Shown one piece after another: positions 24,286 to 25,679 of a stretch of 64,000 bases of DNA (the stretch's first letter is position 1; each line of letters starts with the position of its first letter). The DNA is taken from positions 52,090 to 116,089 of the forward strand of contig RBZT01000424.1 of the NCBI GenBank assembly GCA_003693705.1, read 5' to 3'. The notes below the pieces were generated by a model. The model searched no databases. It was not told the origin of the DNA and worked only from the letters and a program-made list of their open reading frames with translations. The translations under genes were made by a program, and so were the position numbers. This stretch comes from Polymyxa betae. Taxonomy: Eukaryota; Endomyxa; Phytomyxea; Plasmodiophorida; Plasmodiophoridae.

Positions 24286-25679
24286 ATGAAACTGATTAAA
24301 GTGACAGCTGATACAAGCAGATCATGTGTGATAGATTGTTCGTCACCAGAGACATTATGCACCACCTATCGTGATCTAAGAAATGTTTTACAACAGAAAC
24401 AGGACTTATCTGCTGATCATGAACTCTGTGATGCTAATGACGCTGTTCGTTCTCATCGTGCCCTGGATTTTCTTCTCTTAATCTCTTATCAATCAGGTTT
24501 ATGATTTGGATGCACCCATTCAATTTTCAGAAAATGCTGTTGTCCATATCAAGTGGAATAGTTTTGATATTGTTGTTAAGAACGATCCTCACGAGCCTCA
24601 ACATGTTCAGGTCTCCTCATCATGGACTGTTGGACAGGTGTGTCTTATATAAAGCTGCTTTTGTGTTCTGAATACCCTCAGGTTCGAAAAGCATACGAAT
24701 TGGAGATTGGTTCAACCATTGAAAAGTTATCGTTCCAAGGAACTGAGCTGGATGACTTCAATACCCTTAGCTCTTACAGAATCATTCAGAACTCGACATT
24801 GGTTTCACGAATTCGTGTTCATGTTAACGATCGTTATTGCAATGTTTGTAGTGCTATTTGTCTGGTTGAATTTTTGAAAATGAAATTGGCTGTATAGCTC
24901 GAGCAACCTTTACTGCTGTACGAATTTACGACGATTGTTGATTTGAAGACTGCTTTTGGGAATGCAACTGCCCGAACGACCTTCAATGGAACTGTTACTT
25001 ATAATGGCAATGAGCTGAGTGATTATACAACATTATATCAGGCTGGCATCGGTTCTGACGATGTACCGTTTATTCTCTTGCTCGTGTTGTCCTCTTTAAT
25101 TGATATTTTAGTTGATTGAATTTACCAATGCGTCGTTCCAAATTGAGATCGCGACAGCTGGCGTCATGGGAGAAGATGACGAAGACGAACGGATTGTCGA
25201 ATTATCGGTACATGACCATCACACCGTTCAGATGATCAAAGAATCGTATGGACTTGCGACAGGTGGCCAGGTACTTCACCTCTTTTTGTTTGCTCTCCGT
25301 TCTGAAATGCATCAGGCATTGGTTGCTGAAGATCGGCTAGCTTGGGAGGGCGAAGTTCTTGCTGAAAATGAGATGATTTATTTGAGAAATATTAAGGCTG
25401 GCGCCAAACTTTATTTGCAGCGGGAAGGCATTACAAGGTCTGTCTGTTAGTTGAGATGGGCGCGAATATGGATTCATTCTTGCTTAGAACTATTCCTTAC
25501 GAATGCGGTGGCTGTGGTGATGTCAACAAAATTCGGCGTCGTGACCCGATTCGTTGTCGAAATTGTGGTTATCGTGTTCTCTATAAACTTCGAACAACCA
25601 GACGTAAGCAGGTTTTAGATTGCCGGCTGCAACTTCTTGAATATTTATTGCTACAGCTTGTCAATATTTCGCAAGATAG
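24286..25679 (+). CDS. Multi-ubiquitin-like protein fused to RNA polymerase subunit RPABC4 (Rpb12)
   Basis: Eight exons: 24286-24444, 24497-24637, 24682-24822, 24898-25062, 25112-25270, 25316-25437, 25488-25603 and 25657-25679; 341 residues. Residues 1-285 form about four ubiquitin-like units, with telltale stretches such as TIEKLSFQGTELDDFNTLSS and YNGNELSDYTTLYQAGI. The last about 55 residues are a complete RPABC4: zinc ribbon CGGCG, then RDPIRCRNCGYRVLYKLRTT, ending RPCQYFAR. RPABC4 is shared by RNA polymerases I, II and III. The two parts join through a 50-nt GT-AG intron (25438-25487) that is in frame. If it is not spliced, the first part stops at 25450 and a separate RPABC4 could start at ATG 25456, only 5 nt later. 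The fusion reading is preferred but needs transcript proof. Confidence 0.75.

Follow-up and report, generated by a model that had tools for sequence, protein, structure and literature searches.

The fusion gene and its parts

The window, by which we mean the whole 64,000-nucleotide stretch of Polymyxa betae DNA that was analysed, contains at 24286–25679 on the forward strand a gene model of eight exons with a single product of 348 residues and a stop codon at 25677–25679. Residues 1–299 of this product form an array of ubiquitin-like (Ubl) units, followed by a 7-residue linker and, as the last 42 residues, a complete RPABC4 (RPB12). This very small subunit belongs to the core of all nuclear RNA polymerases and usually consists of just a zinc ribbon with a tail. 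The seven introns of the gene are all of the GT–AG type and measure 52, 44, 54, 49, 45, 50 and 53 nt. The features are listed here in order, with matches to P0001, the Plasmodiophora brassicae protein described below, and to the Pfam families PF00240 (ubiquitin) and PF03604 (RPABC4).

24286–24444, + strand: exon 1, with the start codon and the greater part of Ubl unit 1; 56% to P0001 residues 1–54
24497–24637, + strand: exon 2, end of Ubl unit 1 and start of unit 2; 52% to P0001 residues 56–101
24682–24843, + strand: exon 3, remainder of Ubl unit 2 (a Pfam ubiquitin match) and the beginning of unit 3; unit 2 matches PF00240 at E 2.2e-8
24898–25062, + strand: exon 4, Ubl unit 3, a weak match (PF00240, E 0.012)
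25112–25270, + strand: exon 5, which completes unit 3 and carries the first half of Ubl unit 4 with an acidic stretch; placed by the gene model and the mapping of P0001
25316–25437, + strand: exon 6, second half of Ubl unit 4, ending KLYLQREGITR; 68% to P0001 residues 261–304, PF00240 E 0.19
25438–25487, + strand: junction intron, 50 nt, GT–AG, phase 2; from the gene model, and the residues of P0002 (a second relative) would allow an intron in this position
25488–25603, + strand: exon 7, RPABC4 zinc ribbon with its four cysteines and a basic segment; PF03604 E 2.4e-12
25604–25656, + strand: last intron, 53 nt, phase 1; matched in position and phase by an intron of the stand-alone RPABC4 gene on contig C224
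25657–25679, + strand: exon 8, C-terminal tail of RPABC4, last residues PCQYFAR, then the stop codon; P0001 ends PCQYVAR

Splicing out the last intron gives the window protein its PCQYFAR end, which matches the end of the P. brassicae protein. Scans of the window for Rfam families (at gathering thresholds) and for tRNAs returned no matches. Near the fusion gene, at 26737–27018 on the minus strand, lies an open frame with DKCIGSRIWIIMKGEKEITGVLRGD, which by eye we take to be LSm-like.

Relatives with the same architecture

The fusion was first proposed in a sequence-only reading of the window, which suggested that the proteins of relatives be searched for the same architecture, and that search was successful. 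Against approximately 5.8 billion proteins, the fusion protein yielded two matches at E ≤ 1 among 1479 candidates. The first, P0001 from P. brassicae, has the same architecture and the same length of 348 residues, with 59% identity at 100% query coverage, and the alignment to the window protein runs ungapped over all 348 residues. Mapped onto the window, P0001 falls into seven ordered exon pieces, and the 7-residue last exon has no separate match. Its junction reads ...REDIAK and then ATDYECGGCGDVNK..., and its database entry, for an unnamed product, carries ubiquitin and PF03604 as precomputed domains. The database name of P0001 also says '(mitochondrion)', although its longest contig has 1,875,601 bases, and this organelle label looks wrong.

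The second match, P0002, lies on a contig of 3930 nt and covers a short piece of the last Ubl unit (unit 4) together with RPABC4, of which Pfam recognises RPABC4 only. In the Ubl piece 25 of 30 residues are alike, so P0002 does not simply duplicate the P. brassicae sequence. Its junction is open and carries an insert of 17 residues relative to both the window protein and P0001, consistent with a 51-nt intron left unspliced in this position. The only methionines before its zinc ribbon are residues 1 and 11, both upstream of the junction, and RPABC4 therefore has no ATG start of its own in that lineage.

These comparisons carry more weight than the junction itself. Four GT–AG intervals of 38–74 nt occur there, and the 50-nt interval at 25438–25487, which is present as the sequence-only reading had it, is the only one that links the Ubl and zinc-ribbon frames without a stop. 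With several candidate sites, however, a chance in-frame join is not improbable, so the junction by itself is little proof and it is the comparison that decides. Because of P. brassicae and P0002, rather than the junction frame alone, we read the locus as encoding one fused protein. Judged by sequence, the Ubl–RPABC4 fusion is a real gene that is conserved in P. brassicae and in one further relative, and the proposed in-frame joining to a complete RPABC4 is thereby borne out.

A second, stand-alone RPABC4 gene

The fused RPABC4 scores 51.8 bits against PF03604 (cut-off 24), has all four zinc cysteines and shares with RPABC4/RPB12 a complete zinc ribbon, a basic segment and a C-terminal tail ending A-R. 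It differs in context: the matched chains in solved structures have 46–76 residues, whereas here around 300 Ubl residues precede the ribbon, and what is conserved in P. brassicae is a 348-residue fusion rather than a free small protein. Between the window and P. brassicae proteins, identity amounts to 40 of 42 residues in RPABC4, 1 of 7 in the linker and 163 of 299 in the Ubl array, which makes the RPABC4 module the more constrained part.

A profile scan of the genome (24.4 Mb in 541 contigs) found two PF03604 loci, namely the one in the window and another on C224 (7105–7179). The latter is a stand-alone RPABC4 gene that encodes 69 residues and has introns of 50 and 54 nt. Its last intron, in phase 1 before the C-terminal tail, sits at the same place as in the window gene, and this common intron points to shared descent of the two copies at the DNA level. 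The stand-alone gene adjoins EFL1, which matches Spongospora subterranea at 56% over the whole query; the hit ranked next reaches 33% over 99%, in a search with 464 proteins at E ≤ 0.001, of which the best 120 were listed. Together with the 59% match of the fusion to P. brassicae, this marks the genome as plasmodiophorid-like, and such identities make it probable that it belongs to neither of those two species. Contamination as the origin of the C224 copy is ruled out by this plasmodiophorid neighbour, by the 50- and 54-nt introns and by the place and phase of the last intron. A search with the C224 copy, which needs shared words and similar length, gave 27 proteins; none of them is labelled P. 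brassicae, and a single row names an organism.

To compare the two copies, we used 13 other RPABC4 sequences picked from these 27, a set that is biased towards the C224 copy. Thirty columns are invariant in the 13; the fused copy conforms at 23 of them and departs at 7, and the stand-alone copy conforms at 25 and departs at 5, with the four cysteines present in both. E→N and K→L substitutions in the core are among the departures of the fused copy. Both of these also occur in P0001 and P0002 and, being common to all three fused sequences, they indicate that the fused form is a fixed, distinct isoform. The fused and stand-alone copies agree at 24 of 45 positions, and the fused copy retains the C-terminal Q, A and R found in all 15 rows of the alignment.

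Of the other shared subunits, RPB5, RPB8 and RPB10 gave one locus each. RPB6 (PF01192) gave no match in the genome at E 0.001, probably because it is split by introns or divergent.

Because of the stand-alone gene on C224, the fusion is an additional copy and not the sole source of RPABC4, which counts against its existing to supply the subunit. The suggestion that the fusion chaperones or doses RPABC4 is weakened accordingly, and a specialised second isoform is favoured. The sequence-only reading had named a second, stand-alone RPABC4 gene, with the junction interval being intergenic, as a finding that would speak against a fusion; the gene exists, but the interval is not intergenic.

Two further open frames were seen in L003. 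The one at L003:1–384 (C224, minus strand) contains TCERLFSELAMIHSARRNRL, a putative hAT-type transposase end. L003:2228–3505 is an open frame of 426 residues with, by eye, an internal near-exact repeat of about 50 residues (SSVTDLNSRINDVVKEEQNIRRSDSMLHRNEKLA...).

The ubiquitin-like units

The N-terminal part had been described as a ubiquitin-like array, a description that holds firmly for one unit and less so for the rest. Unit 2 alone is significant to PF00240 on its own (E 2.2e-8 in the window and 1.3e-7 in P. brassicae). Units 3 and 4 match weakly (E 0.012 and 0.19 in the window, and 0.012–0.19 over both species, under the curated cut-off). For unit 1 of the window protein Pfam gives no match, and a ubiquitin fold is recognised there only through the predicted fold of P0001 residues 1–77. 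Modelling of the whole protein reached a mean pLDDT of 38.6 with a five-row alignment and 29.8 from the single sequence, and the model is unreliable past residue 75.

The units are also far from ubiquitin itself. The best of them scores 34.2 bits to PF00240, versus 113.5 for the seven best ubiquitin matches of the same genome. In an alignment read by eye, unit 2 differs from ubiquitin in having Ser for Ile44 and Arg for Val70 in both species, and ubiquitin mimicry through the Ile44 patch is therefore disfavoured. In contrast to tandem Ubl proteins such as ISG15 and polyubiquitin, the array of the fusion has no C-terminal GG for conjugation.

A proposed role in a nuclear polymerase

We lean, by a little more than even confidence, towards the reading that the locus encodes one stable protein, a second plasmodiophorid RPABC4 isoform, most likely built into a nuclear polymerase as a Ubl arm. 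The RPABC4 part would enter nuclear RNA polymerase by way of the early platform made up of the alpha-like pair, RPB10 and RPB12; RPB10 and RPB12 are described as joining the alpha-like pair early in assembly (PMC13374769). The Ubl array would then project from the free N-terminus as a permanent arm for partners in assembly, transport (import) or transcription, and in this way the fusion may single out some of the polymerases, whether Pol I, Pol II or Pol III or a form specific to a life stage. We infer that the protein is made and remains uncleaved, that it enters the polymerase and that the arm binds partners.

An N-terminal arm on RPABC4 is feasible, because such additions are tolerated elsewhere. 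In yeast, a chimera of the Rpb12 N-domain and RpoP is reported to show that N-terminal material on the zinc ribbon is tolerated (PMC2680338), and in plants Rpb12 with an N-terminal YFP half is reported in a proximity assay, as is the use of GFP-tagged Rpb12 (PMC13152212). Duplicated core-polymerase subunits with specialised use are described for the plant alpha-like isoforms, which are like the present case in being duplicates of a core subunit; the passages of that source that deal with them mention no Ubl arm (PMC13374769).

Several observations count against the polymerase-arm reading. A stand-alone copy exists, which means that the fusion may no longer belong to the polymerase; the fused copy, as judged from the alignment, departs at slightly more of the invariant columns than the stand-alone one; and the Ubl units besides unit 2 are weak by sequence. 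The first two of these also favour the main rival, in which the zinc ribbon has been recruited, as its binding or nucleic-acid module, into a Ubl scaffold that works off the polymerase, while the C224 copy serves all polymerases. We regard this rival as unlikely, though it deserves to be taken seriously. It sits poorly with RPABC4 being the most conserved part of the protein between the window and P. brassicae, and with the retention of the C-terminal Q, A and R, and the C-terminal part of the archaeal homologue is reported to be essential and sufficient for the basic functions of the enzyme (PMC2680338).

Returning to the polymerase-arm reading, its strongest form is one that we advance tentatively, as less probable than not: at least one specialised plasmodiophorid nuclear polymerase would permanently carry a four-unit Ubl arm through a dedicated duplicate of a common subunit, serving as both identity tag and docking platform. 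If this is true, polymerases would be told apart in an unusual manner, through a conserved RPABC4 duplicate bearing a Ubl array, and a subunit thought to be invariant across polymerases would have been turned into a polymerase-specific identity tag. It would also provide a handle on the organisation of transcription in obligate intracellular plant parasites, which cannot be cultured by themselves. In the freely accessible journal literature searched, we found no description of a Ubl–RPABC4 fusion; the architecture is on a database record through the P. brassicae entry, yet is undescribed as far as that literature goes.

Cleavage and splicing at the junction

Ubiquitin occurs fused to the small zinc proteins S27a and L40, and the present fusion resembles these in placing an N-terminal ubiquitin fold on a small zinc-binding component of a large machine. 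RPABC4 would thus be a third zinc-protein partner joined to the ubiquitin fold, but without the cleavage step. Examples of the familiar kind are found in the same genome, in which the Ub–S27a junction reads RLRGG-GKKK, and an L40 match adjoins ubiquitin-encoding exons on C532, neighbours that suggest a Ub–L40 fusion. Polyubiquitin is also present in the genome.

This shared layout, and the presence of the Ub–S27a fusion and of the L40 gene next to ubiquitin exons, would suit a carrier of the S27a/L40 kind, in which the Ubl array folds or doses RPABC4 and is then removed. We consider such a carrier improbable. Whereas Ub–S27a has one near-perfect ubiquitin with an RGG site, the fusion has several divergent units, none of them the near-identical ubiquitin typical of S27a and L40, and its 7-residue linker is unconserved. 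GG pairs stand only at residues 260 and 310 of the window and P. brassicae proteins, away from the junction, and a junction GG is absent in all three sequences (window, P0001 and P0002). We reject ubiquitin-type cleavage on this ground, and the lack of a junction GG, unlike in the genome's own Ub–S27a, leads us to expect a stable fusion. The sequence-only reading had argued for stability from the missing Gly-Gly, an argument now strengthened by conservation and by the contrast with S27a.

The genome's polyubiquitin gene (C318:63776–65183) has six unit starts, the first five of which are 228 nt (76 codons) apart, so that these units follow one another without an additional codon; the insertion of a single codon in polyubiquitin is described as previously thought to be unique to Rhizaria (PMC10457151).

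If the junction intron is left unspliced, the Ubl frame ends in a TAG at 25448–25450 and an ATG at 25456, 5 nt on, opens a complete free RPABC4 of 56 residues; the 5-nt spacing between the two unspliced frames had been noted before and is correct. Window positions 25448–25487 thus hold a possible stop–restart arrangement, in the event of intron retention, which is absent from P0002. The arrangement could act as a switch, with splicing giving the fusion and retention of the 50-nt intron ending the Ubl protein, after which the ribosome would restart 5 nt on to make free RPABC4. We think this very doubtful: the completeness of the free reading speaks for it, but the arrangement is not conserved, as P0002 has no methionine there and remains open as it is, and a free subunit is already supplied by the stand-alone gene.

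Least probable of all, and in our view hardly tenable, is that two adjacent genes lie here, a Ubl-array gene up to 25450 and a free 56-residue RPABC4 from the ATG at 25456, with no junction intron, for although the latter has an ordinary RPABC4 size and the stop and start are only 5 nt apart, two separate genes are rejected on the strength of P0001, whose 348 residues are fused and gap-free across the junction, and of P0002, in which no methionine stands between the Ubl part and the zinc ribbon. The P. brassicae gene set may speak in the same direction, in that it is described as built with MAKER and strand-specific RNA-seq evidence, a description that concerns the published set as a whole, with a mean intron of 60 bp (PMC4471660).
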